64,000 nucleotides of DNA from Muricea muricata (Eukaryota > Cnidaria > Anthozoa > Malacalcyonacea > Plexauridae), in contig OY979716.1 of NCBI GenBank assembly GCA_963855995.1, positions 41,997,818-42,061,817 of the forward strand. The letters run 5' to 3'. The translations under genes and the position numbers were made by a program. Each line of letters opens with the position of its first letter. The first letter of the stretch is position 1. Below the pieces are notes generated by a model. It searched no databases and was not told the origin of the DNA. It saw only the letters and a list, made by a program, of their open reading frames with translations. Shown in pieces: positions 8,201-62,700 of this stretch.

Positions 8201-11200
8201 AATGGCAAAAAGATAAGTTTTAATTAGTTTATTTTGCTATTATGTAAGCCACATGCAGGGACTATAAAAATGCAGGGACTATAAAAATACAGGGATTGTT
8301 CAATGGAATTTTGACTCATTACTAAAATGTCATCGTGTGAAATGTTATAATTTTCTTCGGTTTTTTCTGGCACTGCAATGTTAAGATGTTCAAAGTATTC
8401 AGAGTACTCAATGACACCAGATTTTTGTGACGTGCTTGTGCAAAGGGGTAGAAAGGGAGTTAGAATCCATTTGCAAGTAGATAAACCCATCTAATTCATC
8501 CCAAAATGTTATTACGTTCCAGATATTTGTTGAAGAGGAGAAGAAAAGGAGTGACATTTGAGTTTTGGTGTACCTACATTGAAATGGTTCAACTGTTATT
8601 AACATTTATCCGAGCAACAAGAACAACTGATTGGAAGCTTCATCTATCTGCAGTGAGAGCAATGCTTCCTTGGTACTTTGCCTACGACTGCATAAATTAC
8701 GCTCGCTATATGTCTGCATACTGGCTAGAAATGATGTGTCTGGATGAGACACACCCAGGTAAGGAAATAACATATTCATACAGCATGACTCTACAATAGT
8801 GAACTTACTGTAATTAAGGTTCAAACAGAATAGTGAACACAAATGCAGTATATACATATAATGTTAATTCATGTTTAGGAGCTTCAGCGGAAATGGAATT
8901 GCAATGGACTGTTCAAAGGCAACAAAATCATGGGTTTTCATCGATTGCCTGTGATCAAACCATTGAGCAAACTTGCAACCGGGATTCCAAAACCAAAGGT
9001 GGTATCGTGGGGTTGACTCAGAATAGAGGAGCAATAAATCAGTGGATTCTTGCTCAAGCTGACAGAAGTGCAGTAACCAGAAATTGTCAGTTGATGGCTG
9101 GTGTAGCAGAGGAGCAAAGGTAACGACAATATTGAATCTGATGATGTCTGAATACAATAGATTAGGTACTGTAGTTTACATTTCTAGAAACTGAATGCTA
9201 CTGTATGTTCACATTTAGAAAGAGGAAAGACCTGGACAAAACTAACTTGGAGAAGCATGAGCAAGCTGTTAAACAGATTATGGCAACAATAACTTCCATG
9301 TCAAACCCGTTTAGCCCAGAAAGCCCCACAGAGTTGTTCAACATATGTAGCGGTGTTGTTGCAGATGAAGAAACAAGAAGAGATTTACAGAATGCATATG
9401 TGAAAGGAGACGAAAGAGTTGAGCAGTATTTCCATACCAAGGTACTATGTGAAGAACCAGATATATTTTCTAAGATTGAAAAAATGAAACTGAAATCTTT
9501 TAATACTATGGCAAAATCAAAGGCAACCCGAACATCTTCTGGCTCTGTCGTTATGGTGAAGAATGATTGTCGCTTCTGGGCAAGGCTTCTTATGATAGCA
9601 AGAAATCGGGATGTTGATCTTCAACATGTTTTCACATATTCCCTGGGACCATATCCAAGAGCACTGGCTACAGACTCTGGCTGTCTTGTTAAAACTGTAA
9701 AATCAAAATTACTTCATGTGCTGGAACAAGAAGCTATGGTGCCACTTATTGAACAGGTTCCAACAAATAGTGCTGCTATTGTTGATGGAATGGCTCTACT
9801 GCAAATGCTGAAAGCAAAAAATATCCCAGAGACATTTGGTCAATTGGCTGATGTTGTTTTGAAGAATGTCATTGACATTGCAGTTTACAATAAATCACGA
9901 CGGGTGGACTTTGTGACGGACAGGTATCCTGCAGTGAGTATAAAAACTGCTGAAAGGTTACACAGGGCAGCATCTGGCACATATACTGTCTCAATACTTG
10001 GTGATCAACAAAAAGTTCCAAAGCAGTGGAAAAAGTTCTTGAGTGTGGGAAGTAATAAGGAACGGCTTGTCGAATTCTTGGTTCAACACTGGAGAAATGT
10101 TCCATGTTCAGCACTGCAGTCAACCCATTTGTTCGCAACAAATAAAGAGAAATGTTACCACTATTACTCTAATGGTGATAGTGTTACTGTTGAAGAAGTT
10201 CCTGAATTGGAGTGTGACCATGAAGAGGCCGACACAAGGATGTTCCTTCATGCACAACATGCTGCAGCATCATCGGATGTTGTTGTTATCAAGAGCCCGG
10301 ATACTGATGTTTTCATCATTGCACTTGCTTGCCAAGCAAATATTCCTGCTACACTTATATTTGACACGGGAACTGCAAATAATCGGAGAAGAATTGATGT
10401 GGGTAGAGTTGCTGAGTTCTTTGGACCCAGGTGGTGCAAAGCCATGATTGGTTTCCATATTTTTACAGGTGGGAATAATTTGGGATAACAGTCCCATCTG
10501 TCTTCATGTATTAACTAGTTTACCAATTAGTAACTAGGTGTTTATCTGATTCTCCTTACATGCCCTTTACCAACTTAATTTAGTGCTTGATGATTTTACT
10601 GACTTGGGAACAGACACTGCTAATGTAAGTCCATTAATGGGTTACAACCTTTAATTTTTTTATGTAAGGTCTGACTCCACAAGTGCATTTTTTGGTAAAG
10701 GTAAGACAACAGCACTTAAAGTAGCAAGAAGCAAAGATGAATTCGGTGGTTCATTTGAGGCACTTGGAAATGATTTACAGCTTCCTGAGAACATCATCAC
10801 GCTTCTGGAGCAATATGTTTGCTGCCTTTATGGCCAAGAAAAAGCTTCATCAGTCAATAATGTCCGTTACAGGATGTTTAAACTTGGCAAGTGCTCAGAG
10901 GACTCACTCCCTCCTAATTTTGATAGTTTATATCAACACATTTTGAGAGTCAACTTTGCAAGTTATATTTGTAAGAATTGTACCATTCCCATTATAAATG
11001 CACCATCACCTGTGGGATATGGTTGGAGCCTACCAGCAGATACACTGGAAATCACATGGGGGACCCAAGGGCCTGCTCCAGACAGCATCTTAGAATTTGT
11101 TAGCTGCAAGTGCAAGAAGGGTTGTCAAACAAACAGGTGCTCATGTTACAAAGCAAATTTGAAGTGCACTGAACTTTGCCAATGCAGCAGCTGTGAGAAC

Positions 11201-11278
11201 AGTGAAGTAGATGATGAGCTGATTGACAATGACTTTGATGGAGAGGCAATGGATTGTGATGATGAGGAATTCGAATAG
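5214..11278 (+). pseudogene. Transposon protein: zinc cluster, XPG/FEN1-like PIN nuclease, CXC
   Basis: Exons at 5214-5714, 5896-7158, about 7161-7640, 7950-8212, about 8523-8758, 8879-9119, 9219-10468 and 10670-11278. Most junctions are GT-AG and in phase. The N-terminal part has CLICKK plus YHKKCYTSYTNF (possible zinc site). The exon at 9219-10468 has the XPG/FEN1 acidic residues in order: VDGMALL (Asp codon 9784), HEEADTR (10219-10239) and SPDTDVF (10294-10314). The last exon adds SDSTSAFFGKGK, like the XPG helix-hairpin-helix entry. At 11101-11200 nine or so Cys form a tesmin/CXC pattern (CKCKKGCQTNRCSCY). The tail is acidic. Breaks: a stop plus 1-nt shift at 7159-7170, a shift near 8550, and a 1-nt mismatch at the 10468/10670 junction. 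It probably acts in transposition. I did not identify the DDE triad. Confidence 0.75.
8224..8500. other. Probable intron of the transposon gene
   Basis: No similarity to the flanking exons. It contains two adjacent copies of a 20-bp unit close to TGCAGGGACTATAAAAA at 8254-8295. The exon before it ends in a stop rather than at a clear donor. Confidence 0.4.
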
Positions 11279-23706: not shown

Positions 23707-26282
23707 TTAATGATAGTTATTAGTTTGGTAATGTGTATTGTAAGTTGTCTGTGCCATTTGATCAAGTCTTTCTTCTTCATTCAGTCGATACTGCAAAGTG
23801 GTAGAAGATTTCAAACTAGTTAAGCGCTCGTAGGTCATTGGTTCAATAATGCATGATGACAATATTTTTACCCTACTAAGGGCAACATATGAGGCTCCCG
23901 GAGTTCTTTCTGACTTCCCAATATTTATCCATGCTTTAGGCAAGGTAAGTCCCTGACTTTTGTGGATTGTTATTGCCCATGCTAGTCTAAGAGGAAGCTG
24001 TTGTCTTTCATGGAAACCATTTGATAATTGAGTTGAAGCAGTGATTGGGATTATTGGTACACAAGATGGAAGGGTCTGACTGATAGATGGACCTGTGTAA
24101 TTGTCAAATTTAACAACAACTGCTATTGGCATATCAGGGGGATGTTGATTATTATGATATATAAAATGTACAATTGTTCCAGTTGCACCATTGCAAAGAC
24201 CGACAGCTGGCCATAAATTCATTGTAAGCATTATTTTAGCACCTTTAGCTAAAAACAGTAATGGTTGTAGACCAGAAAAATCATCAGGGCTGACATTCTT
24301 GGCTGCAGGAGACGAATGTCTAGCATTGACTTGAGCAACTGGTTGTTTTAGCTTAGTGAGTTGTTCATGGTTATAGTTGGCAACTTCTTCATTACTGTAG
24401 AACAATCTAGTTGCATCATTAAATTCTTCCAAATTGTCAACATTTGCAGGTTGTCGAGTCAACAGCAGTTTCCAGTCATCTACTGTTGATTCTCCTTTTC
24501 TCAGCCTCAAAAGCAAGTTTCGAAATTGTATCTGTTCAGGATTATTACCTTGGACACGCTGGTTAACATCGAGCTTTACTACTTTATCAAACATAGCGTA
24601 TGTGATATGTCCTTGTTCACCAATACTATTGGTGGGTATGGAATGATAGAGTGGTTTGTCTGCTACAGGTGGAAGCTGAGCTGGATCACCACACAAAATA
24701 AGAGATTTATTACCAAGAAGTTTGTCAAGAAAACCAGAGGCTTGTTTACAGCGCTTGTCTATCCAGCCAAAGTTTATTTGGCCAAGCATGGAATACTCGT
24801 CAATTATAATATAGTCAATGCCTTTTAGTGATTCTTGTAATCTTATCAAACTCTGACCTGTAAGATCTTTATGCCCTCTCGATCCAACTGGTAACTTTAA
24901 AAGTGAATGAATTGTTATGCCATTTATATTAAAGGCAGCTTTACCAATTGTTGCAGTTACCGCACATTTGTCATGCAAAAGCGTACGGATACCATTTATT
25001 AAATAGCTCTTACCAGTACCTGCCACTCCATTGATAATGAGAGCAAGTGGATCTTTGCTTGAAGACATGTCTTGAAAGTGAGTCTGTACAATATTGTATG
25101 CAAGTTGTTGCATTTCACTGAATGTACCAGGATCTATACTTTCATATTGTTCATGTGAGGCCTGATTACTCTGTTCCCTCATGTTCTTTATCCATGCTGG
25201 CATTTCACCAATCTGCTGTTCAGAATAATGACATCTGTCATTGTTCCAATCATAAGATAACTCAGAATTTGTTTGTGAAGAATCAATAAATGGTACATGT
25301 AGGTCAGATATAACCATCCATTCTTCACGAGAGTCTTCAGGATGTGTATCAACATGCTGATCTTCGGTTTCGTGTTGACTATGAATAACAGATTGAAGTT
25401 TGTCAAACCATTCTGGGACATTTGCCTCAGCATATGGTGTTTGTAGGAACTGTTTCCATTTGTTTATCATGTTTTCGTCTGATGTCTCTTCATTATCCCA
25501 AGCATTTTCTTGTGTTTTTTTCCAAGGTTTGTATCTTAAAAGTTGGTATTTACAATACTGAGGGAAGTTTGAACCTCTTGGATTAGAAGAGTATGTAGGG
25601 AAAATTCTTGGAACAACATTATCTGGAAGTGTGACAAGTTTTTTGTTTACAACCTTAAACTGTGTTGCAAACTGGACAAAATTTAATTTAGCTGTATCTA
25701 TTGGGCTATCATAATGTTCCCGATTAGCATAGACATCAAGAAGGGAATTAGAAGAACAAACTTTGCCATCTTCAGTTGGGGAGTTAATATGAATTCTACG
25801 AGACCCATTTAAGCTAACTGGTATTACATTGAAGCTAGAGCTGTAAAGCCTCTGTGAGAGTAAGTGGTGCATTGTTTCTTGAGCAGCATAATCTCTTTCA
25901 CCAAGTGTCTTCATTATTACTTTTTTTATAGCTTTGTGAGGATTACTACTGCTCGGACTATTTTTCATGACTGTGCTAAATGCTGCTTTCATCATAGGTG
26001 TCCTAGGCTCACCTTTAGCAGCATACTTTGTAAGATATTCAACACATGCATAGTGGTCAATGACTACTTGAATGTCACAATTAGCTCTCCAACCCTGTAA
26101 TTGCAGCTGCTGATTGTTATTAAGTCGGGAGTCATTTCTCTTAGTGACAATTTTTGCTCTATACTGGGGTTCATCACTGTTAGTATGAATTTGTTCAAAC
26201 TCTAATCTTGTCTTAGAGCAGATATCCTTTGGAAAGTTGAATCGACATTTCAGTTCAGAATCAGCATTCTTCTTTCTTAAGC
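23707..26282 (-). pseudogene. Helitron RepHel, C-terminal half: Rep tyrosines and PIF1 helicase
   Basis: About 857 open codons follow the insertion point. Near the start is the Rep catalytic tyrosine pair motif, CVEYLTKYAAKGE (about 26010-26046). The PIF1-type helicase has Walker A GVAGTGKSYL (about 25005-25035), Walker B IIDEYSM, the GDPAQLPPV motif, and the motif VI region AITIHKSQGLTLPKAW with YVALSRV. No internal stops are present. The half is separated from its HUH motif by 11 kb of inserted element, so it is inactive as it stands. Family role: nicking and 5'-3' unwinding for rolling-circle transposition. The length and motifs agree with full animal Helitron proteins. Confidence 0.9.
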
Positions 26283-26292
26283 AATCCCTTAC

Positions 26293-26440
26293 GAAAATGT
26301 TCAATAGAATCCTATAGAATATGCTATAGAATATTCCAATTCCAGTAGAATATTCTATAGAACCTATTATCCTATAGAATATTCTATTGCAATATTCTAT
26401 AGAATTTTCTGATCCTATAGAATATTCTATTGGATGTTCG
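26293..26440. repeat. Left subterminal repeat array of the CACTA-type element
   Basis: Repeated, partly overlapping variants of CCTATAGAATATTCTATAGA. I count about eight ATAGAATAT-type cores in both orientations. The motif is itself palindromic (ATAGAATATTCTAT). Confidence 0.88.
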
Positions 26441-26515
26441 TATGAATATTAAATATGTTACTATCAGTATAAAAAAATTTTTTGGATTGATTTATTTTGA
26501 AGAAATATATTTAAC

Positions 26516-26712
26516 AAATAGATTTCATTTTTTCGTGCGTCTGTACTGTAATAGATCACAAATACTGTAATAGATAACGTCATAGCGTGTGAAGAATAAA
26601 AAAGTACACACGAGACGTAGTCGAGTGGATGACTTTTTGTTCTTCACATGCTATGGCGTCACCTGTGATCTATTACAGTACAGAAGCACAAAAAAATGAA
26701 ATCTATTTGTTT
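26516..26712. mobile_element. MITE with ~45-bp inverted arms
   Basis: AAATAGATTTCATTTTTTCG (26517) followed by TACTGTAATAGATCAC is mirrored at 26667-26712. The middle has a further pair, CACACGCTATGACG-like and CATGCTATGGCGTC. It lies inside the CACTA-type element, outside its genes. Confidence 0.75.
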
Positions 26713-27909
26713 TATATCATAATAAAGTTAGCAAAAGTCATGTGAAGACCCGCGAAATAAATTAGACCACGCCATCAGTTGACGTCATCCGTGCACGTGT
26801 ACTTTAATAACACACAGCTCGCGACCAATGAAAATGCAGAATGAACACGAATTATTATATAAATATATGTATGGAACATATGTTATATGTATATTCCACA
26901 GAGCTTTTATGGGATATTTTGTGGAATATTCTATACAATAATCAATTGAACATTTTTAATGCAACCAATTTCTATGTGAGAGTAACGCAACTTCTAAAAA
27001 CTGAAACGAAAACATATGGAAACTATCATAAGACATATTATATACTGATTTAAAATTTCAAAATAAATAAAATTCACTCACTGGCATATTAAATATGGTA
27101 TGTGAAATAATTTTCTCCTTGGATGATTACAAATGTTAACCTATAATTCTTGGGTTAGTTAGAACAATATCACAACCCATATATAAGTCAAGCACATTAA
27201 AAGTTGAATATATTTTTATTAATACAAAATGGTATTTACAGTACATCTAACAGTTGTTGTTTCTCACAAAATTAACAGTACTATAATCACAATATTTACA
27301 ATTTTCTGCCTATTAAACTAACCAAAGTACAGCAAAACGTCATGCAAGAAAACATGTATAAAAAGTGAAAAATATAATACGTAATTATTGAAAATATTCA
27401 TGCTAAAAGGAGCATTTTACTTTCCTCAACTCAGCCCACTTTGTATGATCAAACATCGATTATACACAAGTATCAGAATTTCTAAAAGTTATTAATACAT
27501 GAAATATTTTGTGCACACTTTTTATCATTGAGTACAAGATTTCTTGCATGAAAAACTGACATCTTTAGCCTTGTATGTCAGAAAACCATAGTTTTCAGAA
27601 TTTTCAATCAAAATATCATATTACAATGTGCATACTGTAAGTGCTCAGCTATTCCAAAACGAGCCAAAAGTTGTAAAATTTGGATGAAATGAGTGTAGAA
27701 GCTAATCAATGCTGCTTATAAATGTATTCTGTCATTTTATTGGATAAACTCACATTTTATCTACACTTATAATAAACACACTGTATTATCTTGAATTCAA
27801 AATTCTATAGCAAAACTGCTTGAACAAATTCTTTGCTTTGCTTATTGCACATGGATGACTTCATGACTGGTCAAGATTACTGTACAAACTAGTTATATTT
27901 ATGAAATAT

Positions 27910-30900
27910 TCAGTCATCATAAATACGGTATGGCAATGGACAAAAATATTTTTTGTCATCTACTGTTAGGCAAATACATTTTCGTTCAATTTGAGAGGGA
28001 TCAAGTGCAATTATGTTATTTGTTTCTTGAACTTCTACAATAAATTTACAGGAAATGTTAAAATCTTCATCCCTGAATAGAGATCTTTGATTAGCTACCA
28101 TAGGTTTCACAATTACTGCATGATATAGTGAGCATTGACAGTACTGACAAACCTCCAAAGAACAACAACAAGATGGCTTAACATTCAAGAGACCTAGGAT
28201 TACTCCGTATTTATAAGCTGGATGTTTAAAAGAAATGTTGTGATTTGTGTGCCGTTTAGATCTGGTATAATTCACACCAGAATACGACTGATGATTATAA
28301 ACAAACCGATCATAAAGATCTCCAGACTCAGTGTTTACGATCACACCAAGAAGATCTTGCAATGCAACCAACATACGAGCATCTAAGGTAACCACTTTAC
28401 AAGAACCTAGAACACTCAACCCATCACCACCATTCTTGTGCCTATATCTTGCATCATACAACAGCTTAACAAGTACATCATTTACAGCAACAGCAGAACA
28501 ATCATCTATGCATTTTCTTGCCATTGTTGAAATCTTGTTCTTGAGCAAAAACGTGTCCGTTATCTGCTGTGGAACAGACTGTGTTCCATGGAACAAGTTA
28601 ACAAGAACATGATTGTGCCCTTCAAAAGTAAAAGTAGAAGTAGCCCACAATGGACCGCAATCTCTAACACAATGTCCAAGATGGGTTAAACAGTGAACAT
28701 TAAACTTACAACTTGAAAGCCCGTATAGTTCCTCCAGTTGAATTACAAATTTTGTTAGACAAAATTCAGAGAGAGAAATATCATTCTCTGATAAAGAGTC
28801 ACCTGAAAGAGTGTATATCCCATATACAAAAAGAAAGAAGTGACTCAGATAACGAGAAGGAAGCACTCCTTGAAGAATGAGAAGGCTATAAAAGATAAAA
28901 GCCCTCCACTCTGATGCTTTCCAGTAGCACCTATGTGCAAGGCTTCGTGGGCTTCGGTGAAGTTCGCTAGGAGGACTGATAAGTTGCAGACGCTGATCGA
29001 TCAAGCTGATACTTTGACCAATATAATAACGTTCGCAATGATTCTTAATGTTAAACCACATATCTACCATTTGCCTTACAACCCCTAAGCAAACAGAATG
29101 CATAAAGTCTGTCACTGTGCCCCTCACAGTGTCAAAAGAGGGAAGTAGGTCTGCATAGGTCATCCCTTTCACTCCCTTGACAGGATTGGTAGGTGTTGCT
29201 TCCAATGCATACTTTGCTTGCTTTGCAGCAGTGCGCATAACAACTGGTGTTCTATGGGGGTAGTACCTTAATGGAGGACCATTGTTATTTGGCACAGTTA
29301 CCCCTTCAAACTCACACCAGTCACACCCGTTCATACCATTGTATTGTTTCACATTTCGAACAATAGCTCGAGCAGGAGAATCTGCAGATAGCAACAATGC
29401 AAATACTTTTCTTGGCCGAACTTCATTGTCAAAAAGAAAACCATCCACCTCCAACTTTCGGCACTCATCAACAAATGGTTTCAAAAAGACATTCATTACT
29501 GGCTTCTGGCCAAACCATAAACCAAGCAACAGGATATTTTTCCCCCTTAAGTGTTGAGGAAGCTCATTTACAAAAGCTTGTAAAGGCCACACAGAAAAGT
29601 TAGAAGAGTTAAAGATAGGAATGCCATCTGTATTCCATGTCAAAGATACATCATTTGGATTGAGACCATGCCTAACTATTAGCTCCTTATACAATTTCGA
29701 TGTTGTCACATCATTTATAGTTTTTGATTTAAGGATATGATCTAAATTTCTGTTAGTTAAATAAGGGAAAAGTTTGTTATTCGATAACATGCTTCTAATT
29801 TGTTGTTGAACAGGAATATATATAAAATAATGTCCATTCTTAATACTTTCCTCTTCATTGAATGCTTCATCACATAAATTGCAGGCTGCAAATGTTGTGT
29901 CATTTCCCAAGTACGACATACACGTGGAACAGTAGAAGTGCTTCTATAAATGTAAAGTTTTTCAAAAAATCAATTCTTTTGTTAAGAAATCATACAACAT
30001 AATGCTGAGCAAATTAACTTTCAACAACTTTCAGGCACTATTAACACATACCTCTGACTTCTCTAATTTAAACAAATTATAAAATTTGTGTTTGGTTGGT
30101 GGAACTGTGTTTGGAAAAAATGTATTGAGCAGCAACAGCAGATCTCCAAGTGCCACATCGGTGAGCTTATGTCTCAGCACAAAACAAAGGATTAGGAGAA
30201 GGCTCTGTGTTTTTGTGATATTTGCACCTGGATAAATAGGCACTTTTTCTTCCTATAAGAGTAAAACATTGTTAGACAGTATAGAGTTTATTTATACTAA
30301 CTTAGTGTCACCAATTGTATACATCTTTTGATACAAATTTTTCCCATTACAATTCACAAATATTATGAAATCATTCCCTCTAAGGCAAAGCAAGTGAATC
30401 AAGGAAACATCCAAGCATAGACCTCATGCAATTTTTTACATCCAAAAGATTAATATCAAAAAAGTCCTCAACATGTAGTGTCTACTAAATGGTGAGTACT
30501 TGTCACTTCCCCAACTTATGCACCGGTCAATAGAAGGTTTAGGTTAGCTTTGCTAATCACCTTACTTACCAATAAGGAGACACAAAGCTGCTAATCCCCC
30601 GCTAATGCCCTGCTATGTCCCAGCCCTGGGGATGCAGGGATTTATATTGACTGGTGCACTATTGGTACTCTGTAATTTGACATCACACAATTAAAGATGA
30701 TGCAAATGAGTTATAATCATATACCCTCGTTTGTAAAGAAATACCTGGCTATTGTTGAAATCAAAGCTATCTACCATCCCATCATTTGTGTCAGTTCGTG
30801 AAGCGTCATCACAATTACTTTCAACTTCATCATGCCATTCATTGTCTGTAGGAATCTTTAGTATAGCAAAAAAGTACATACCAAGCATCAGAATCTTGAA

Positions 30901-32161
30901 ATAGCACTTATATAGGTTTCCCTAAGACTATTGTTCTCACTACTAAGCCTTGCTAAGAGTTTAAGAATAGTTTGACATAAAAATATGATTACTATACAAT
31001 GAATTAAGACAGTTTATTAATAAAATATACCTGGTCATTGTTGAAATCAAGCTCATCTGCCTTTGTATAATTTGTGTGACCTTGAGGAGTCTTGCCACTG
31101 CTCCTTTCCTCTTCATCATGCTGTTCATCATCAGGTGGAATCTATGTACAGAAGCATTCATAATATATGTAATGGGAGGCCCATGCATTTTTTAAATTAA
31201 CCTTCATGCAGCTTACATATCCTATTGACCTACAAAACCACAAAGTCTATACGACCTATCACTGCCAGTCCCTTATGGGCCAGTAGAACATTAAATAATA
31301 TTTGCCTTATCTATTTCATGTTGTTCAAGGGATGTTCACATGGTTGCATCCAGAGTTTCAGTGAATACATTTCAGTGACAATTTTAGTGAATAGTTTGAA
31401 GATCAGCTTACAGTTTGCTTTTTAAACATGATCTGTTACATAGTTGAAAAGTGTGTGTTCATGTACTTTGAAACAATATGTTTTCAGCAACAATATGTTG
31501 CTAAGTTGCAACATTTAATTTTGGCAGGCATTGTGTAAACTTGTGGTGGGCATAACCAGCTGATGCAATATAACAAACCTATATAACGGGTCTAAATTAG
31601 TTACTAAAAGATCAAATGATGCTGAAGAACTTCCTAAATTCTGATGCTGTATAACTGATCACTTTATTAATATGAAAAACTGCAAGTTTAGCACAACTTC
31701 AAATAGCCGCACTGAATGATACCCAGTTTATCCACTAATTTTCTATTTGGCAAAAAAATAAATAAAATGTCTGCCATTTCAGCATGCTATGCATGAAATA
31801 TTTTTAAATATTTATTCAACAATTCTAAATGCGTAAAATACTGAGAAATGTCAATAAAATGTTTGATACAATTGCTCTCCCCCCCCTTGGAATGCTCATA
31901 TGCCACCCTTCTTTACACGCATCTATTTTTATAGTAATAATTCTACATACATATTAAGCTAAAACTAATCAGCTTCATAATGAAGCGTAAGGCGTAAAAT
32001 ACATAGGGCTACCATACCGTGTGATTAACAGAATGAACTGGCTGGTCTGACTGAGTCGTTGAGCTGACACGTCGACGTTTTCTTCTGTTGTAAGATGTTG
32101 TCCTTGGAACCTGAACGCCAGGATCATATTCATGCTGTTTATAAGGACCTCTTATTGACAT
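27910..32161 (-). CDS. EnSpm/CACTA-type transposase (866 aa, 5 exons)
   Basis: Exons 32161-32018, 31141-31031, 30855-30745, 30252-30052 and 29943-27910, all GT-AG and all phase 0, giving 866 codons with no stop. Exon 1 is basic (YNRRKRRRV, likely nuclear signal). Exons 2 and 3 are both 111 nt and encode similar acidic segments (IPPDDEQHDEE / IPTDNEWHDEV, both ending DFNN-Q), so one is a duplicate. Exon 4 has LRHKLTDVALGDLL, typical of animal EnSpm proteins. Exon 5 starts with a zinc cluster (HFYCSTCMSY, ACNLCDEA). The tnp2-like core follows: TWNTDGIPIFNSS (likely first catalytic Asp), GLWFGQKPVMNVFLKPF, DWCEFEG and DFMHSVCLGVVRQM. The protein cuts and pastes the element. The copy appears intact. 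Confidence 0.9.
30518..30657. mobile_element. Short MITE in transposase intron 3
   Basis: The left end ATGCACCGGTCAATAGA and the inverted right end TATTGACTGGTGCA frame 140 bases. GCTAAT-type short repeats lie inside. It sits between exons 3 and 4 of the transposase gene. Confidence 0.6.
30915..30950. repeat. Solo arm of a dispersed palindromic repeat
   Basis: GGTTTCCCTAAGACTATTGT and the following bases match the arm of the palindromic MITE at 2687-2796. It lies in the intron between transposase exons 2 and 3. Confidence 0.55.
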
Positions 32162-32521
32162 GACTTCTCACTTTCCAGAGTAATGTTTCGAGCATAAGTC
32201 AGAGGTATAAAACAACAGTTTTTTTCACGTAATCTGAAAACCAAATCCTATGATAGTTCATTTAATGTATATGGCATTTTTACTCGAGTATACACGAACA
32301 CACGCGCTTGCTGTCATCCATGCTTGCATTAATTTCGCTCGAAGCAGACGAAAACACTGGGAATGAGGACGCTCGCAAGGTTGCTTGGGAAATGTGTCAC
32401 CTATCACATGTTCTTTTCGGCGCAAAATTTGACTCGAACACTTGACATCGATTCGCTGTAATCTTTCGAATTTTTAACCTAAATATTTATTGATTTGGTA
32501 AGCTTTTTCTTTTCCTTCAAT
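32162..32521. promoter_or_regulatory. Shared divergent promoter region
   Basis: A 360-bp gap separates the start codons of the minus-strand transposase gene (32161) and the plus-strand BEN gene (32522). It is the only upstream space available to both genes. No clear TATA box or palindromic ATAGAATATTCTAT site stands out. Its role as a bidirectional promoter is inferred from the geometry. Confidence 0.5.
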
Positions 32522-35500
32522 ATGAAATACGCGTTGTTTGAATTCACAAACGAAAAAGCGTGCGAAGTTGGTGAGACGCGATGGATCCTTCGAGAAAATC
32601 CGGACACGTTCAAAAATGTTGGCTGGGATGACGAAAAAGATGTGATGGTGGCATGGCCGTGCGATTTCACGAAAATCCACAAAAAAATAATAAAGGGTTC
32701 CCTAGACCCAGAAGCATTGGAAACCAAAACCTGCGTGGCTAAAGTAAAAAAATTCAGCGGTAAGTCAGAGTCTGTTTTGCACTGGTTGTATGGTTCATTG
32801 AATTATGATTTTGCGCGATATGAAAATTATATGAACTGCCCTTTGCTAAGCACTTTTGTACGTATATCTTATATGCTCATTAATCATGCACTTTATATAA
32901 GGGTTGTAGATAAAAGATAGGCTCAAATTGGAATTACAAAAATACACAGTAAGAGACCATATTAAACTTGTGTGTGTTTGGTGGTGGTGGTGGTGGTGGA
33001 GGGAAGGGGGGATGACATAAAAAAGAAAAAATAACACTTCTTAAATCACTGAAGGCCTTATTATTAAGTGCAAAAATAAATTTTAATATTTCTTAATATG
33101 TCAAGTAAATATATTTAATTTACAAAAATCCAAATGAGAGAAGCCATAATTTGGGTCCATGCATGGGGCATCATAAATGGAGGGGTTAATACTGCTGGCA
33201 TTGCTCAGCAAGGTGTTATTGAGTAAATAATGAATTGTTGATCCGTGGATTTTTAAATAACATGTCTATATATTGTGCCAGCTTTGCACAACATTATGTA
33301 TAGGTTTGTGTTGGAGCATGTTAATTTGTTAAAGTCTTGTCCCTGCTTGCCCACTTCAACATTCTGATTGTAAAATGTTGATCATTTTTGGTATATTCCT
33401 TCAACAGATGACTATGAAACCATTCGTCTTTACCTGAACCAGTATTGTACTACTGGCTCATTGACGACCCCCAATCACGGCAGAGGAAAACGTTTGTTGA
33501 GGCCAAATGGCAGATATACCAATTCAGATGATGAAGATGAACCAGTCGAAAGCATAGAAGACACTCAGGAGAAGGTATACCATCATGAAATCTCTCTTAC
33601 ATATACTGTTTACCTCATATTTTCATTTGGTAAAGGTAGCATATCCTAATTGGTAGGTTTCTGTACAGCAGGTTGTATACAACATGGTTGTGATAAAAAT
33701 AGAAATTTTCACTAAAATTTTGAACCGTCTTGAAGGAAACTGAAATTAGATGACCTATTTTTCACATGGCCAGATACCAGATAAAATTTTGATGGCAAAA
33801 TGAGACTATACATTAAATTCCACAAAATGAAATGCTAAATTCCAATTCTATTTAAACCTCTATTCCAATTTGAAGAACAACCATGTCTTTAGGCCTTTTC
33901 ATGTGAGCCCAGTTACTAAGATGTCTTACCTACCTATGATCTTGCCTGCTATTAGTAAATATGATAAAAATTGTCTATGAGAAGGCAAACTGGCCCACTT
34001 GCTGAGATGAAAGCTAGTGAGATCATAGTTAGAGGTGGGATGAAAAATTCCCCATATGAACATGCCAGTCCAGTTACCAGAATGAAACTTGAAACACACA
34101 AAAATGTTCTTCCTAACAAAGTAACTTGCCAAAGTAACAGGCCCTTTGCATGATTCTTGTAGTTTTAGATCATTTAGGGGGTATTGATTTCATGGGTATT
34201 GATTCTTAATTTTTGGTGGTAGTAGTGTTATTCACAACTGATTAATTGAGAAACAAACACAGGGAATTTTTTCATTTCAAGACAAATGAAAAATTGCTGC
34301 TTGAATAAATTTCTATAGTGTATAATACTTTTAAAATGTTGGAGAATTTTTCTTACAAAAAAGGTGCCTTTTCATGTAACAAATGTGTGATGTTAAAGAA
34401 ATATAAAACATTTTCATGTTACATGGTTGTATCAGCATGAGTGGAAATTGGCATTGTGCGAAAACACGACACTCTGTGGGTGGAGTGTTTTCAAACAATT
34501 TTGAATTTTGATGTAACTGCATTTGAATACAGAAAAAATGTTTGATTCATATTTTTTAATAAGGTAGCACAAAAAATATAGGGGACGATATTGAAATAAC
34601 AGTTTCACAAAAGAGTTATCAGAAATTTTCTGTGTTGAAATTGAGTTATTTCAGCACTGCCAATAAGTGTTCAGAATTTACAAATTCTGTATACTGTATG
34701 TTATAATATATTTTGCAATAGTCTATAATATTGTGAATTTACATCTTTTCAATTCTATTCTTAATAAACCCTTTTTAACCTCACAAAAGGCCCAGAAATG
34801 GCAAGAAGAATGCTAACAAATCACCTCATTCATTTTCCTGTAATGAAATGGAGGCTCTAAAAGCCAAATATAAGTTAGCAACAGAAAAGGCAAGTTGGTT
34901 GCTAAATGCAAGTTTGCGATCTTTCTTAGTTGTAGTTGTGTAACATGTTCAAACCACGTTTGTCCAAATTTAAAATGTTAAATGTCTTTGCTTTCTAGAC
35001 AGCAGACCATTTTATGGACACATTAAGTGGAAATGAGGAAGAAGGCGAGGTATGTCTGAGTATTATGTATACTGCAGTGCAATACTATTGTTCAAATATT
35101 AATGTTTTCTTGTTCGCAATTTTTTTAAGATGTCTTGTGAATTGGAAGATGAAATTGAGTCGCTGAGAAAGGACAATGGCAACCTTCGCAAGAAACTCAA
35201 AGAAAGAGAAAAAGAAATTGAACGTTTGAAGCTTATGATTAACAATCTTAAAGGTAAGCCAATGTATCAACTTTTCAGAAAGTCCATGAATATTGTCACA
35301 CTTGTGACTGATGCAGTCAAGCAATGTACCTGACATTCTTGCACTTGATGTACCAGCGCTCTGTAGTGTTTGTATAGAAAGTCAGAAACCCTATGGCAAA
35401 AACTAAATTTAAAGTTTAGTGCAAATCATAATGTTGTCAAGTGCAAGTTTTCTGATTTTTGTTATCATTTTAGTGATGCCATGCCTGTCAGATATTGTTG

Positions 35501-36421
35501 CTGACTTGCGAGAACAAGTGACTCGCCTGAGTGATCAGGGGCATTCTGGACAAGATTGTTCATCTCCGCAAACACCATCATTCAGCAGAACAACGTTAAG
35601 GACTGGGAGCTCTTCATTAAACTCCTCAAGACCTTCAAGTGGGTCATCTACACCAATAAATTTATCAGATTCAGATATTGAAACAGAACTGGTAAGTTTC
35701 TTAGCCTAGGATTTACTGTATATGTGCATCAAGTCGTTCTATTATAACACTATCTTTGGTTATTGAAACAAGCCAATTACTATAGTAAATGTCACATCAA
35801 ATATTAGATGGAAAATACATGTTTGTCATTAAGGCAATCTTATTAGGGACATGGACAGAAACTGATGCATATATCTTTTTATACCACTATCATAACCATT
35901 GCAGAAATGTGAAATGCCAAAATATTGATATATTTTACCATTTCTTTTACGTATAGGTCCGCTTGTGTCCTAATGTTGAGTTGACAAAAGCTCAATATGG
36001 AGCCATTAAATCAAAGACAAATTTGAAAGATTTTGTTTATGCAATTATGGGTATGTTATGGACACGGGAAATCCTTTACAGTCATTCCATTAGTGGAAAA
36101 TCATCCAATGCATTCAAGGAAAAGGATGCCAAACCTCAACTTGACCCAGAGAAAGTGAAGAGTATTTTAGGTGAGCTATTGTTTTTATACATATATACTT
36201 GGCAGATTCCTCAAGATTAATGACAATCATCCCATCAACAAGTTTTATGCAGAAGCAATTCTAAAAGCATTGTATTATCTTTTCTTCTTCTTCTAGGTTT
36301 AGAGTACGGTGCAAAACGATTTGGCTGTAAAGAAACGGAAGTGAGACAAGTCATGACTGCCAGAATAAACAACATAGTTAAAGTCGAAAAAGCAAAAAAG
36401 AAGTCATGTACCGAACAGTAA
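32522..36421 (+). CDS. BEN-domain protein with coiled coil, carried by the CACTA-type element
   Basis: Exons 32522-32759, 33408-33574, 34790-34889, 34999-35049, 35130-35253, 35474-35691, 35957-36170 and 36297-36421. Seven junction pairs were checked. All fit in phase except exon 2 to 3, where two bases are unaccounted for (missed small exon or frame shift). The intron after exon 3 uses GC-AG (AAAAG/GCAAGT). The N-terminal domain starts MKYALFEFTNEKACEVGE. Exon 5 is a coiled coil (LEDEIESLRKDNGNLRKKLK). Exon 6 is Ser/Thr-rich with an acidic end. Exons 7-8 form the BEN domain: CPNVELTKAQYGAI, DFVYAIMGMLWTREIL, SISGK, QLDPEKVKSIL and FGCKETEVRQVMTARI. BEN domains bind DNA, often palindromes. AATAAA occurs at about 36669. 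It may bind the subterminal arrays, which is inference. Confidence 0.82.
32971..32999. repeat. TG/GGT microsatellite
   Basis: TGTGTGTTT followed by about six GGT units, in intron 1 of the BEN gene. Confidence 0.85.
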
Positions 36422-37049
36422 CTCTTTTACTATAAGAATTCTATATGCATCTATAATATATTTTTTTACAGTTCAATTAGCCTATTCCTTACTTGCACGT
36501 GTAGCCGATTTGCCTTGTGGAAATGGAAAAACAACAGATAATTTAGGTTTCTTTATGCTTTGCATGTGGCCTAATGATTAAGGATCTAAAGGTATTTGTA
36601 GGTGCACAATGTTTTATCAACAAAATTCTTAGGCTACAATCTAATAGAAAGCTAAGAATTGCATTATTAATAAAACATGGTGAAACTTACAAGTACATTT
36701 TGATCTTTAACAGATTTATTCGTTTGGCAAAGCTAGCATCAAATATCTCATTTCTGACTTGTGATTTATACATGAATATGCTCTATTGACATAAAATATA
36801 TAAATATAAAAGCTTCAAAGGTATAATCATATATGTTGCAAAATAACTTTTGGTAATATATAGACTTTGTTGGGAATACCTGTGTTACACTAATCAGTGT
36901 AAACTCAATTAATTGACCGATGTAGGTTTTGCACAACCTGAGTGTATAGAATAGCTTATATAATTAAATTTAGTATTCTATTTAATACAATATAGAAACT
37001 TTGAAAGAATATTATGCAGGCTGGTGTATAAAACCTACGATATGATTCA

Positions 37050-37330
37050 CTTGAATATTCCATAGAATATTCAATACATGTCCGTAGAATCTTCTATAGA
37101 ATTAAGGTGAATATGCCATTGAATATTCTATAGAACATCCAATAGCATATGTTCTAAAATCTTTTATAGAGTATCCTATAGAATCTTCTATAGAATTCTC
37201 TTGAATCTTTTATTAGATATTCTATAGAATATCCTATAGAACATTCCATAGAATGTGTTCCAAAATCTTTTAGAATATGCTATAGAATATCCTATAGAAT
37301 GTTTCAATGTCATATTCCATAGAATATTTT
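37050..37330. repeat. Right subterminal repeat array of the CACTA-type element
   Basis: About fourteen variants of the same ATAGAATATTCTATAGAA motif, spaced roughly every 15-25 bp. They match the array at the left end in sequence but not in copy number. Confidence 0.88.
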
Positions 37331-37341
37331 TGTAAGGGAAT

Positions 37342-40300
37342 AGCTTGTACTACAGCGAGTATGGCGCTGAACAATGTTTAACAGATCACAATAATCATCA
37401 TGCATATCGCATTGTGGAATGTCCTGATAGTGCCTTTGAGATGGGTGGCAGTTAGGTCTTACCCACACACCATCATCTGGCGAATTTGGGTTAACAGTAG
37501 AAAGCAACCAGTCAATGTACTGACATGCTATTTGGGCAGCTTTGTTACCAGAAATAATATCTTGGTTTAGTTCAGGTCTATTTTCATCTTTGTGCTCATC
37601 TTTGTATTTTTGAGCTAAGAAGCCTTTCAGTGCTGTCTTAGTTAGATCACACAAACCAGGGTCATTGTTCAGTTTAGCAGTGCCATGGCAATGGATGCTT
37701 CCCCTAGCTTGGTATTCAAATCTGTACCAGTGCCATTTGGCATCAAGTGTTTTATACAACCAGTATTTGATGAAATTTTCCAACCTTTGGGTAAAATACC
37801 AATCGACAATGTGTGGATTATTTATTACAGCCTGTCGCCTTTCTTCACTAGTACCATTTTCATTACCAAATAGTGCATGCAAGTCAGGCCAATGCATGTC
37901 AGCAGATGAAAATGTGAAAAAAATAGTTGGTGTGCCAACAGTTGTTACAATGGCTTTTAGATCTTCTCTCACCTTGTACCAGTAAGCATTTGAACCAGCA
38001 ACATTTGCAACATATCTAGATATCTTTGAAATAAAAGCATTGCTGTTGTTAGAGGCAGCCACTGCACGTAGTTCATCTACTGTTAAGTGAGCTTCACCAG
38101 GATTTTGCTTAAGAAAAATACCACTTTGTTGCAAGGTTCTTTTTCTTTGAATCATGTTGAAAGTCCAATAAGAAAATCTAGGGTGGTTAGAAAATCTGTA
38201 AACCCATTTTCCATCAACCTTTTCTGCAAATTTAATGAGATGCTTGACTCTTTCACCTATAGGAATCTCACTTAAAAGTGATGGATTTGTTGGATCCCCT
38301 TTACCATCAGGAAATAATGTAGGAAATGCTAATGTAGCTAGGAAAGGTATCTGATATTCATTGATAGGCTGATTGTTAACAGTGGGCCAGTTCACTGGTT
38401 CTTTTGGGCACAATTTATCTTTAATTGCCTCTAATTCCTGTTGCTGTTGCTCATTGACAGGCATAAAACTACTCATTTCTGATGTTTGATTGTAAACTGT
38501 GTCCTCTTCATCGTTATCAGTAGTGGGGCCTAAATCAGGTGATGTTATTTCACTTGACATGTCAGTATCAGACTCAACAGTCATGATACCAGACGGAACA
38601 CCATTGACTGGTAGACATTGCAATGCATGTTCATTGATAGTTATGTCTCTATAATGAGGATTATTTTGCATAAGCCAGAGCAGTGCATTGTGCACTTTTT
38701 GCTTCCGCACATTCACATTCTTGAATGTGTTGTCTCTACCTTTTACCTTTACCATAATTACAGACAAATCCTTGGGAAACCTTGGCAAAACTGTTGCAAG
38801 CGCTTTAACATCTTGAGGCAAATTAATACAATGCCCTGAATAACCCCTTTGTCCACCTGGTTTGATGTAAACTCTCATTATTGGAAGTGCTCGAGCAATG
38901 AGCATTTCTTCTATTTGAGTGAGACCTTGTAGCTCAATAGGTACTGGCCCTGGAATCATGCAATTAGCATCAGAAAACTTTTTTGGTGTGTTTTTATCTC
39001 TAGAACACCTCAAACACACATAGTTAGCTGGACACTTAGGTTTAGTGTTAATTGGCCATGCTTCTTTGCAGATTGTGCATTGAAAAATTACATATTGCAT
39101 AGATTTATGAAATTCTTTCATGCTGCATTTTGCCCAACATTGCTCATGTAATGCACCATTTCTTAAGGCATCAAATTCACTCAGATATACTGTTTTACCA
39201 ATACCTTGAGTAACATTACTATGTGTTGTTAAACAAGTACTAGCTGAGTGATTTTCTTGGACATTTGAATCTTTTTGGTTATTTAAAGATGATATTCTAT
39301 TTTTGTAGGCCTCTCTTCTCTTGGCCAGTCGACGCTGCTTATTATCATTAGTTTCTTGGGCCCTACGTAGCCTAGCCAGCTCTGCCTTTTTTGCAAGACG
39401 AGCCTTCTTTTCATTAATAGACTCAATGGCTCTTTGCAACTTATCACACTCTCTCTTCTTTGCTAATCTAGTCTGCTTGGCATCACTACATTCATTAACC
39501 CTTTTTGTCTTGCCAAATTTTCTCTTGTTTGCAAGCATTTTTGCCCTTGTACACAACTTTCTTTCTAATGAAGTCAGGTTAATGGCATTTTCATTGCATG
39601 TTTCTTGCAAAGTAGAAACATAATGTAAATCAATTATGTAACCCAGAAAAACAGATCTTTGGTTGCGTTGTGAATTAACAGGTGTGACAATTGTTGCATT
39701 AAAATTATTTGGATTAGAATCAGTTATATGAATTATACAGCTAAGAGCATTTGCTACTGCTTGTATGATAACATTATCACACCATGTTCCTTGTTTCGAC
39801 ATCTCATGAATGTAATGATCCCATGACACATTAGCAAGACTTTCAATATATAATTCAGGATTATTAATCATATGAGTAATTCCAGCATTACGAATGTGAA
39901 AATGCAAGTCAGCATTACTATAAAGGCCATGCCCCATAGATGCAAAAAAGCAGTCACCACATGAACTTCCACAATCAAAAGGCAATCGGCCTATTAAAGC
40001 CAATTTATTCACCAAATTATCCCAGGGTAAGTTATCAGCATTGTCTGAATACATGCCACCACTTAACTTGTAGTTGGAACTTAAGTGTTGTTTGTTTAAT
40101 TGGAGTACAAGATCTTTTCTGCCCTTTTTTGTGTTGCAATTGTTTTTGCTAGCCATCATGCTGAAGTTATTGTCAAAACATTGCGGTCTAGCAAACACAT
40201 GTACACTCTGTCTATAGCATTCTATTAATGCATAACCACAGGATTTAAGCGAACTGTTTATCAAAATATCAGCAATACTTTGTGTATAGATGTACGTTTT

Positions 40301-40675
40301 TTTATATTGGGCAGTCTTGAGTGATACAATATAAACCTCGTGACATGCACAGATGGACATTTGACTAGTAAATGGCTGCCCAGCGACACAGCTGAGATGA
40401 AAATATTTGTTTATTTGACCACCTACTACAGTCATGGTCGATAGGCCAAATGGCCACCCAGCTATGTAACTGGGATTTTGGCAGTTTAATGTCTGACCAC
40501 CTACTATAGACATGGTCAGAAGCTCGTATTTTTGTGTGTCAAAATGCGGGAGCAGGTAGCCACGAAAACTTGAATCTGTGGAAAGACAAAGCACAGTTGT
40601 CACCGAACCGCAACGTTCGTTTTGGGAGAGAAACACCTCTACACAGCTTTGTGATATTCTGATAAACTGCTTCAC
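37342..40675 (-). pseudogene. Helitron RepHel, N-terminal half: OTU protease and Rep HUH domain
   Basis: One open frame of about 1,110 codons ends at the CACTA-type insertion. The true start is probably MMASKN near 40159, because the 170 codons before it look like translated leader with a repeated VVGGQ segment. Near 39960 is an OTU cysteine protease motif, [16 protein letters not shown] (Cys), with the matching His in IDLHYVS near 39627. A basic repeat segment follows (about 39540-39280; [28 protein letters not shown]). Next is a Cys-rich zinc site (CTICKEAW...CLRCSR). The Helitron Rep region ends with the HUH motif [11 protein letters not shown] (about 37683-37710). The Tyr motif lies beyond the insertion. 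It is inactive while split. Confidence 0.9.
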
Positions 40676-48899: not shown

Positions 48900-49499
48900 C
48901 TAGAAAAGGTTAAGAGGAATCGAGCTGCCTTGGATATTAAGAGTAGGTTTGTATTTATTTATGAGGAGGCTCTCGTGTATCATTAACTCATACGAATCAG
49001 AACAACAAGAAATGATTTTGATATCGTCCAAGTCCACTTTGTGACCAGAGGCACACGAGTGGGAAAGCACACTGGACTTAGTGGGGTTAGAGGTATGTTT
49101 TCCCGTAATAGGAGAGATACCCAGGTGCTCTGATATTCTAGTGTGTAAATGGCGTGTGGTTTGACCCACATACGATGCGGAACAGCATTGACACTTAAAA
49201 AGGTAAACAACACTAGATCTCAGGTACTTGGGAACTTTATACTTAAAAGGGAAAAAAGAAGCGATTCGTCTAGAGGAGCAGAAAACAAATCTAGTATTGA
49301 GATGAGGGAAAGCGGCATTACAAAGGCGATTGATTTGGGTGCGGATTTGGAGAGAATGCATGCCTGTGAATGGAAGGCAGAAATAGATTATTTTCTTGGG
49401 AACCGTCTGGACGGAAGGTTTAGGATCAAAGGTATCGCCCAAAAATCTACGAGTAATGCGTTCAAACATGCGTTCAATTGACACCCCATTTGAACTCAC
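48900..49499 (-). pseudogene. Penelope-like element, 3' part with GIY-YIG endonuclease
   Basis: A 199-codon frame, truncated at its 5' end, encodes the region between the reverse transcriptase and the endonuclease, then the endonuclease. YLFKCQCCSASYVGQTTR holds the GIY-YIG-like pair (here with SYVGQT). HTRISEHLG carries the conserved Arg and His. VLSHSCASGHKVDLDDIKI, then ELMIHESLLINKYKPTLN with the catalytic Glu, complete the domain. The Cys pair in KCQCC matches the Penelope-type zinc site. No reverse transcriptase was found upstream, as usual for 5'-truncated copies. Confidence 0.88.
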
Positions 49500-49553
49500 C
49501 AGAAAAGCTGCAAAACAAACAATAAACGCTTACCGTTTGAGGACTATAGACAC

Positions 49554-59700: not shown

Positions 59701-62700
59701 TCACTGACATCGTTTTTGTCACTGATGTATCGTGTTTTTTTGTCACTGATGTATCGTGTTTTTTTGTCACTGACATTGTTTTTGTCCAGCTCTGTTTGTC
59801 CCAGATGAAGGTATTGAAGGCACATGTTTTGAAGTATGTAATAAACAGGTGATCATATGAAAATGTTTGTCTATTACACGCGTAAAAACGCACAAGTTGT
59901 TACAAGTATGCAAAAACAAGTTGTTACAAGTCTGTTCACAAGTTGTCTACAAGTTGTGTTCGCACTGCTTGTTTCTAGTTTGTCGTGACAAGTTTGAAGC
60001 AAGTTGTTAACAACTTGCAATTGTAACAAGCTTGATGGCATTATCAGACTTGTTACAAGGTTGTTCTAACAAGTCTGATACAAACATGATACAACAAGAA
60101 TGTTACAAGTTTAACGACACAAGGTTGCAGCAATATCGTTATATCATGATTGTAACAGGCTTGTTGGAACAACTTTGTATCAGGTCTGACAATATCAACA
60201 TGGTTGTTACAAGTTGCTAACAGCTTGCTCCAAACTTGTTGACAACTTGTAACAAGCCATGCGAACACAACTTGTTGACGGCTTGTTTGCAGACTTGCTA
60301 CAAGTTGTGACATTTTTACGTGTGTAGGCGGAGGAAATCACGTGCTGTGTTTTTTTTTTACATTCTTGCTGAATAAAGGGTTAAACCAGATGATATTGCG
60401 ATGCCTATTTCTATGTGTTTGTTGACGTGTTTGATGAATGTAGTCTAGTTTGTTGTCAAACTAGACTACATTCATACACAAACTAGACTACATTCATACA
60501 CAAACTAGACTACATTCATCAAACGGCTCAACACACACGTAGAAATATGCAACGCAATATCATCTGGTTTAACCCTCCATTCAGCAAGAATGTCAAAACA
60601 AACATTGCACGTAATTTCCTCCGCCTAATAGACAAACATTTTCATATGATAACAATAAGCTCCGTATGGTTTTTAACAGGAACAAAGTTAAGGTTAGTTA
60701 CAGCTGCATGAGCTATGTCAAGTCCATAATATCAAGACACAACACACACGTCATTAGGAAAAACCAGCCAACAATTGAGACCTAGACACTTGCACATGTA
60801 GAAACAAGAATACATGCCCACTAGAGGAACACTGCATGACCAAGGACATTGTATACAAGGCCACAGTTACAACAGACAACACAAGCAGCACAAAACATTA
60901 CATAGGCATGACAGCAAGCACATTTGGACCCAAATTTGCGGAATACGCTTTTGAATTTAAAGATTAAAGAGCGGCGGGAAATTTTCTGTGTTGACATTGA
61001 GATATACCACTTTGAAGTATACTCCAAGGTATATAGAGTTTATGGAATTCTAATGCAGAATCTGTTCTTTAATATAGGAAAGTGAGCCAGGTAAAGTTAA
61101 CTCCTGATGTTTGGGCAGATGTGCCAATCGAGAAAATTGAGAGGCTTCCATATGATATAGACGGACTAAAGATTTACATCCTTGAATATGATGATGGTAA
61201 CAAAACTACTGTTACTGAGGATGGGCGACAGTGGTGCAATTACACTACGTCAAGACGTGCGGGCTTCATTGGAAAGAGATACTTGAAATCTTGCAAAGGG
61301 TCGCACCGATGTGAAAATGAGCACTGCGGCTACTTTCGTCAGTACAATAAAGTAAATCGAGTCCAGTTTGAGAAAAAAGGATCCTGCTTAGTATGTAGCA
61401 CATGTGGAGCAACACCTGTTTTTGTACCATGTGCTGCTAGGAAAATATGGGAGTATCCCGAAGGGGAATCAAGAGTAACTGTATATCACTACGGAACACA
61501 TACATGTTTCCCAGTCAAGAGAAGCCCAGCAGCCATTACAGAGGCAGCCAGAACGGCATTCAAACAATCCAGAACCCTAAGACCAGAAAGGTTTGTAAAT
61601 GACAAGTTAATTGAAGCCATCGAGAACGAAGAATCCCTTGAAGGAATTAAAGATCTGGCAGATAGTTTGATCGACCGACAGACGCTAAAAAATATGAAGC
61701 AGTCCGTTAAAACGAAACTCGACCCAGTGGGACACAGTTATGATGCAGTGATGAAGTACAAGACAAAAGTACAGGATGTACTTAAAGATCCCTTCTTGAT
61801 TTACAAGGTGGACTGTGAAAAGCAAATTGTGTTCAAGACCAGCCGGGAACAGTTGCAACTTGCTGTTGAGATGGACCGTGACGGCCAAGGGCATCTGAAA
61901 ACTGAACCTTGCCATATGGATGGTAAGCACAACCGTGTCACTGGATATATTACTATATCCTTAGTTGTGTATAACCCAAATTTACGGGAAATGACGAAAA
62001 TTGCAACCATGGAATGTCCAACAGAAAGCAAGCAGAATATCGGGATGTTTTGGGGTTGTCTAAATAAAGCGTTACAACAATATACTGGCGACAGCAAGTA
62101 TGTGTTTAAACCTCATATGTACGTTTTCGATGAAGGCGGGGGATTTTGGGCTTCACTGGAAGAAAAATTAGGAGCAGAAGAGATTAGTCGAGCCGTTAGC
62201 TGTGAACGCCACTGGGGATTCTCTGTTGACAGAAATGCAAAGAAACTAATTGGAGACGATTTGAGAGAGGAATACCGTTTTCTTTCCAATTCAGTGCTGA
62301 AAGCATCCACTACGAACATGTACTACAAGGCAAAGGTGGCTTTAGAGAGGTTCATCGACAACAGTCCATTTTTGAGGAACTTGTGGAAAGCCCGTCGATC
62401 CCATGTTTTCCGCGCTTTCAAACCTGGTTTTAATGTAGCAAAGAGTAATTTGGCAGAAGTCCACCATTCAAGATGGCATCATATTAGTGCAGAGAATCTC
62501 ACCTTGATTCAAGCTTGTCGCGAAGATGTAGCTGAAAGCGTTAAGCTTAAGAGCCGACTAGAAGGTTATCAGGTTGGTGCTTACAAAGGAGGTCGTGGCC
62601 CATCCACCGCAGACCTGCAAAGACGAAGACACCTCGACCAAAAGAAGCAAGCAGAAACGTTCTGCAAGGAACTGGATGATTACGTTGAGAGTGGAGAAGA

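Follow-up and report, generated by a model that had tools for sequence, protein, structure and literature searches.

A 64,000-nucleotide stretch of the Muricea muricata genome (the window, whose own numbering is used here unless another sequence is named; it occupies C1:41997818-42061817 in an assembly of 453 Mb and 74 contigs) contains an element that is an animal CACTA/EnSpm transposon of the TRC type, belonging to a family with two genes: a transposase and, reading divergently from it, a gene for a protein with a BEN domain and a coiled coil. The linkage of the two genes across the family is practically certain. The plant En/Spm element needs TNPA, which binds subterminal repeats, besides TNPD (PMC2613891; also PMC1636069), and we consider it probable, at roughly 70%, that the BEN protein would act in the manner of TNPA, binding the palindromes arrayed at the ends of the element and pairing those ends.

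A search of the genome with BEN exon 1 yields 34 matches, and one with transposase exon 5 at least 75 (66 of 272 candidates scored), which merge into at least 55 loci. Twenty-four of the 34 BEN matches, the window's included, have a divergent transposase locus within 6 kb, against 0.0124 expected by random placement, and 27 have a transposase locus within 20 kb; the check proposed in the initial annotation, for the BEN gene in other copies, thus finds it in copies of this genome in the same divergent place. We fetched 20 further BEN/transposase pairs, picked because they were already paired, and all 20 keep the head-to-head order and orientation; transposase exon 1 is detected in 17 of them, lying 291–568 bp from BEN exon 1 as measured between matched ends.

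The two genes have also diverged together, as a comparison of the kind proposed in the initial annotation reveals. Protein distances for transposase exon 5 (the largest piece per copy) and for BEN exon 1 give a Mantel r of 0.921 (21 pairs, 209 of 210 comparisons usable, 0 of 2000 permutations), and 0.825 within clade I, one of two clades, alone (n = 12, 0 of 2000 permutations). The nonsynonymous and synonymous divergences (dN and dS) between the transposases of the window and copy L014 are 0.13 and 1.09. Across seven diverged pairs, BEN exon 1 shows dN values of 0.14–0.58; dS is saturated in six of these pairs and 2.9 in the seventh, which puts dN well below dS. Near-identical groups of copies are found at distant places (L015/L016, L017/L018/L019, L022/L023/L031 and L025/L026), with L015 and L016 having a transposase dS of 0.007 and identical BEN exons 1, and such pairs show that both genes moved together recently. 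Because copies are linked, share the same layout and co-diverge, the BEN gene is a gene of the family.

Both ends of the window's element carry arrays of a palindrome, TTCYATRGAA, that occurs there exactly nine times against a shuffled mean of 0.006 (Table 1 gives the sites with up to one mismatch). A left end was located in 18 of the 20 fetched loci (none in L016 or L030), and motifs were counted in 15 left ends, comprising the window's and 14 fetched ones, eight of clade I and seven of clade II; those of L018, L019, L027 and L029, located by fuzzy match only, are outside these counts. Expectations come from 100 dinucleotide shuffles per left end, and from letter shuffles for right ends. The motif TYCWWWWGRA, which was defined post hoc from the ends, is present in all 15 left ends at 3–9 copies each (shuffled means of 0.28 or less), and its versions segregate by clade: TTCTATAGAA is present in six of the eight clade I left ends (0–3 per end) and in none of clade II, whereas TCCTATAGGA is present in all seven clade II left ends (2–7 per end) and in none of clade I. 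Right ends follow suit, with TTCTATAGAA found 2–4 times in six of clade I (the window's and five others).

The BEN protein Insensitive (Insv) binds TCCAATTGGA and variants described by TCYAATHRGAA (PMC6911014), a consensus that the literature had fixed beforehand, and TCCTATAGGA differs from its first ten letters at one position. Four of the seven clade II left ends contain the exact consensus (five sites in L022, four in L023, four in L031 and two in L032; shuffled means 0.02–0.05), and the right end of L022 contains three more. That several ends carry the site which the literature gives for a related BEN protein is a point independent of common descent. The predicted recognition helix reads EVRQVMTARINNIVK in the window and KQVRSHIKAKLNNTER in L022, a difference matching that between the clade palindromes which is suggestive, with only two clades to compare. 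In L021 (reverse complement), from about position 762, the clade II element is neighboured by a further CCCTTACAAAAAT end that bears a different palindrome, AACTATAGTT, of which the stretch holds seven copies and which is perhaps a third palindrome type.

The BEN domain passes Pfam PF10523 (1.2e-10, 41.9 bits, cut-off 23.2; 48.1 bits for the relative P0001), and a two-sequence profile searched against the PDB places it closest to Insv (7.2e-10) and BEND6 (7.7e-10), effectively a tie, followed by Bsg25A (4.7e-7), with nothing else at E≤10. The protein has two database relatives at E≤0.001: one of 388 residues on a 1,704-base contig, probably a transcript, that is 45% identical over the full query, and one from the octocoral Paramuricea clavata with 40% identity over 60%. 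A profile of BEN exon 1 matched 42 proteins, including the window's own. Fold matches indicate a Tudor-like N-terminus; this label and the BAH-like one given below to part of the transposase are taken from folds because Pfam returned a single weak Tudor-named match (0.036, in one of 25 rows). Profiles of the Tudor-like and BAH-like regions and of the transposase, run against PDB sequences, produced non-significant matches only, and Foldseek with the BEN-protein model found nothing in the PDB at E≤0.001 and, among viral structures, a bracovirus protein at 2.1e-3. Immediately beyond the right end of copy L015 there is a second, diverged BEN fragment, on the opposite strand at about 1918–2605 of L036 (reverse complement).

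The transposase gene is complete, as had been proposed, with five exons that are all in phase 0, GT/AG introns and 866 codons. Exons 2 and 3, adjacent and 111 bp each, look like tandem duplicates, and the RGPYK of exon 1 is common to the Dendronephthya and Lingula relatives. The catalytic residues are D295, D377, C396-x2-C399, H606-x3-H610 and E630. The CMC signature, a DDE triad with C(2)C and H(3-4)H motifs between the second D and the last E (PMC12730594), is present in all 27 aligned rows. Pfam Transposase_21 (PF02992) scores 25.4–26.1 bits in the window, below its cut-off of 28.6, and matches 24 of the 27 aligned members at E≤1, the best at 4.3e-12. The N-terminus is basic, the predicted fold is RAG1/Transib-like, and a BAH-like region (fold match only) is present in 26 of the 27 aligned relatives, from cnidarian to fish. 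There are 117 database relatives at E≤0.001 (7,995 candidates scored), the nearest 87% identical; those with a named source include the octocoral Dendronephthya (50% and 72%), Lingula (48%) and fishes (35–38%). No relative was found in viral contigs scanned with the BEN and transposase alignments, or in genome contigs scanned with that of the transposase. A transposase family of 36–39% identity with 765-codon open frames occurs at C3:39525568, C15:5414642, C53:331102 and C3:26708119.

The CMC signature places the element in the EnSpm/CACTA superfamily, as initially annotated, but its termini are not of the CACTA kind. TRC elements combine a Transposase_21-type transposase with CCC-starting terminal inverted repeats (TIRs) and 2-bp target duplications (PMC1636069, PMC4298943). 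The window's element and 17 of the 18 fetched left ends start with CCC, the remaining one with TCC. Both ends were found in seven of nine copies examined (no right end for L025 and L026), and the target duplications of these seven are 2 bp in five (TC, TG, TG, GT and CA), 3 bp in the window, and lacking in L022. The plant pattern of a CACTA or CAC TIR with a 3-bp duplication is thus not seen, the TIR being CCCTTAC and the duplication 2 bp in five of seven, and the CCC termini and 2-bp duplications put the family in the animal TRC branch rather than with plant CACTA elements.

The window's element runs from CCCTTACGAAAAT on the left to ATTTTTGTAAGGG on the right, of the CCCTTAC/GTAAGGG type, and its excision together with one AAT restores a single open Helitron frame of 1,970 codons. 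This host gene, 37341-40675 (-) with 23707-26280 (-), encodes OTU protease, DUF6570, Helitron_like_N and PIF1 domains and is split by the element. The termini, the AAT duplication, the length of 11,053 bp and the rejoining of the Helitron frame all agree with the initial annotation, whose further claim that the whole moved as one unit need not extend to 362 bp, since these constitute a nested repeat resembling a miniature inverted-repeat transposable element (MITE) with at least 39 other genomic places 87–90% alike (40 scored of 1219 first-look candidates). The CTATAGAATATTC end motif occurs 35 times in the window with up to two mismatches, against 2.29 expected. A 17-mer of the terminus matched five viral loci (L001-L005), which we took as chance in a large collection.

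A protein that is made by the element, combines a BEN domain with a coiled coil and is encoded beside palindrome arrays at both ends has the look to be expected of an end-pairing factor. Insv binds as a dimer and multimerises through its coiled coil and C-terminal parts, and could bridge distant sites (PMC6317261). We propose that BEN dimers would bind the TYCWWWWGRA repeats at both ends, that the coiled coil would multimerise these dimers and so bridge the two ends, and that the bridged ends would recruit the transposase to the CCCTTAC tips, where its DDE core with a RAG1/Transib-like fold would carry out cutting and joining. The task of TNPA in plant En/Spm would thereby be performed by a presumably unrelated protein. 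Palindromes that differ by clade, and that in part are the published site of the Insv BEN domain, suggest that the parallel with TNPA is apt; binding, end pairing and a need for the protein in transposition are the parts of it that we infer.

Several observations weigh against this proposal, or blunt the evidence for it. Ten of the 34 BEN matches have no transposase within 6 kb, and at 31 of the 55 transposase loci no BEN exon 1 was detected within 6 kb; of three of these that were inspected, C10 and C11 turn out to carry divergently placed BEN exons, and the third, the 37% relative on C15 (L040), has no BEN gene in the 10 kb examined. The Mantel correlation shows that the two genes are inherited together, not what they do, and is inflated by the near-identical copies in the set of 21. 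The transposases of L029 and L033 have a dN close to dS (0.125 and 0.127), as decaying copies. Clade-specific palindromes are expected from common descent alone, and are consistent with, but no proof of, a co-evolving binder. The Insv consensus is absent from the window's own ends and from all eight clade I left ends, no TCYAATHRGAA 11-mer occurs in L021, L025 or L026, and the four ends that contain Insv sites represent only two families, given the near-identity of L022, L023 and L031. The window's shared divergent region, 32162-32521, contains no TTCYATRGAA palindrome with up to one mismatch. Lastly, the spliced gene for a BEN and coiled-coil protein that had been annotated as diverging from a 360-bp region stands as to its exons, orientation, spacing and Pfam BEN domain, but is doubtful as to its reading frame at one junction: exon 2 (ending at 33574) is out of frame with exon 3 at the likely acceptor before 34790. 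Weak in-frame acceptors lie at 34806, 34809, 34854 and 34875, and small intervening exons are imaginable; read by eye, exon 3 is open in phase 0 from its acceptor in seven of nine related copies in which it was found, and shifted in L015 and L033. The window copy's BEN gene may be spliced elsewhere or may be frameshifted, and whether it yields protein is in doubt.

The principal alternative is that the BEN protein serves chromatin, in expression, insulation or the steering of insertion, through its Tudor-like and BEN parts, while the transposase itself binds the palindromes. Insv and Elba are described as boundary factors and repressors, and the Tudor-like fold matches, the BAH-like domain of the transposase and its basic N-terminus all fit such a role, whereas the arrays of the published Insv site found at the ends of several members, and the palindrome-free divergent region of the window, do not. 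We regard it as a real but rather unlikely explanation in this exclusive form, although, given the Tudor-like and BAH-like parts, a chromatin role may hold in addition to end pairing.

That the palindromes are sites of a host factor such as heat-shock factor, making the element inducible and resembling Insv sites by chance in AT-rich DNA, seems improbable: GAANNTTC does occur 11 times in the window's two end blocks, but four clade II ends contain the exact 11-bp consensus of Insv far more often than their shuffled versions do, and heat-shock-factor arrays were rejected because neither block contains a three-unit heat-shock element. That the window copy alone captured a BEN gene from its host has nothing to recommend it except that animals have BEN genes. 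Linkage at 24 places in one genome, a common layout and a Mantel r of 0.92 allow this reading to be dismissed almost with certainty.

Table 1. Features of the two-gene element and its insertion site in the window.
Feature	Position	Strand	Remarks
Target-site copy AAT, left	26283..26285		right copy 37339-37341
Whole element	26286..37338		11,053 bp; TIR CCCTTACGAAAATRTTC-like, inverted at opposite end; AAT direct repeats outside
Left subterminal array	26294..26450		10-bp palindrome TTCYATRGAA, 7 sites, ≤1 mismatch
Nested MITE-like foldback repeat	26505..26866		362 bp; inverted arms; high copy
Transposase exon 5	27910..29943	-	677 codons; holds catalytic core
BAH-like C-terminal domain of transposase	27934..28425	-	fold match alone
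Transposase exon 4	30052..30252	-
Transposase exon 3	30745..30855	-	resembles duplicate of exon 2
Transposase exon 2	31031..31141	-
Transposase exon 1	32018..32161	-	begins RGPYK
Intergenic divergent region, putative shared promoter	32162..32521		360 bp between both start codons; arrangement kept in relatives
BEN exon 1	32522..32759	+	start of Tudor-like N-terminal domain
BEN exon 2	33408..33574	+
BEN exon 3	34790..34889	+	5' border frame in doubt in window copy
BEN exon 4	34999..35049	+
BEN exon 5	35130..35253	+	coiled coil; helix in model of relative P0001
BEN exon 6	35474..35691	+
BEN domain	35957..36421	+	exon 7 35957-36170, exon 8 36297-36421 (presumed recognition helix)
Right subterminal array	37036..37330		TTCYATRGAA, 11 sites, ≤1 mismatch

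Elsewhere in the window are an open reading frame (ORF) with a GIY-YIG domain (48900-49529 (-), 3.2e-6), perhaps of a Penelope-like element, a cysteine-rich ORF with weak, sub-cut-off CXC/tesmin matches (10655-11278 (+)), and an 847-codon ORF with no Pfam match at E≤0.01 (61073-63616 (+)), which resembles a MULE/SWIM transposase.

To our knowledge no end-binding helper is known for animal members of the CACTA/EnSpm superfamily, and a transposon-borne BEN protein beside end arrays that partly match the Insv site is a strong candidate for one. The diverged pairs of BEN proteins and sites form a natural set for working out BEN recognition, and BEN transposons are a possible source of chromatin-boundary BEN proteins. 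On a broader and more speculative scheme, which we put forward only tentatively and think unlikely to hold in full, animal CACTA elements would long have used a BEN protein as their second protein for transposition, the BEN domain of each lineage co-evolving with its own end palindrome and one lineage using exactly the site bound by Insv in the fly. Those animal BEN boundary factors that bind palindromes may be descendants of such transposon proteins. With its RAG1-like core, its BAH-like tail and a partner that is Tudor-like, the transposase would join RAG1/RAG2 as an example of a transposase coupled to chromatin-reader-like parts.

A literature search in which reports were mostly judged by title, the subscription literature lying largely outside it, found no report of a transposon encoding a BEN or BAH domain. 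The closest known systems compare as follows. Among animal elements, those of PIF/Harbinger encode, in addition to their transposase, a DNA-binding protein of Myb-like type, but differ in superfamily and in DNA-binding domain. RAG1-RAG2, RAG-like transposons and Transib differ in that the partner here is unlike RAG2 in its domains, the genes are divergent and the ends begin with CCC. Fungal DNA transposons with TET/JBP genes are a precedent for chromatin-related genes on EnSpm and other transposons (PMC12730594), but, as described there, these are DNA-modifying enzymes passed between superfamilies, as opposed to a presumed DNA binder. Insv, Elba/Bsg25A and BEND6 are by sequence the closest BEN domains of known structure, and Insv likewise contains a coiled coil and recognises palindromes in dimeric form; they are chromosomal regulators for which the accounts consulted describe no transposon location, and the palindrome of clade I differs from the consensus for Insv. 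The TRC elements, SmTRC1 of Schistosoma and Spongebob/EnSpm-4N1_HM of Hydra, share the Transposase_21-type transposase, CCC TIRs and 2-bp duplications, but SmTRC1 is described as making several proteins by alternative splicing of one unit, in an account that, so far as consulted, mentions no BEN gene, whereas the family described here has a separate divergent BEN gene and arrays of BEN-type palindromes. Maize En/Spm, finally, is alike in its two proteins and its arrays of short subterminal repeats, to which TNPA binds, but on the published description derives TNPA by alternative splicing of one transcription unit, where the Muricea element has a separate, divergent BEN-domain gene and, between the two start codons, a region that may act as their shared promoter.

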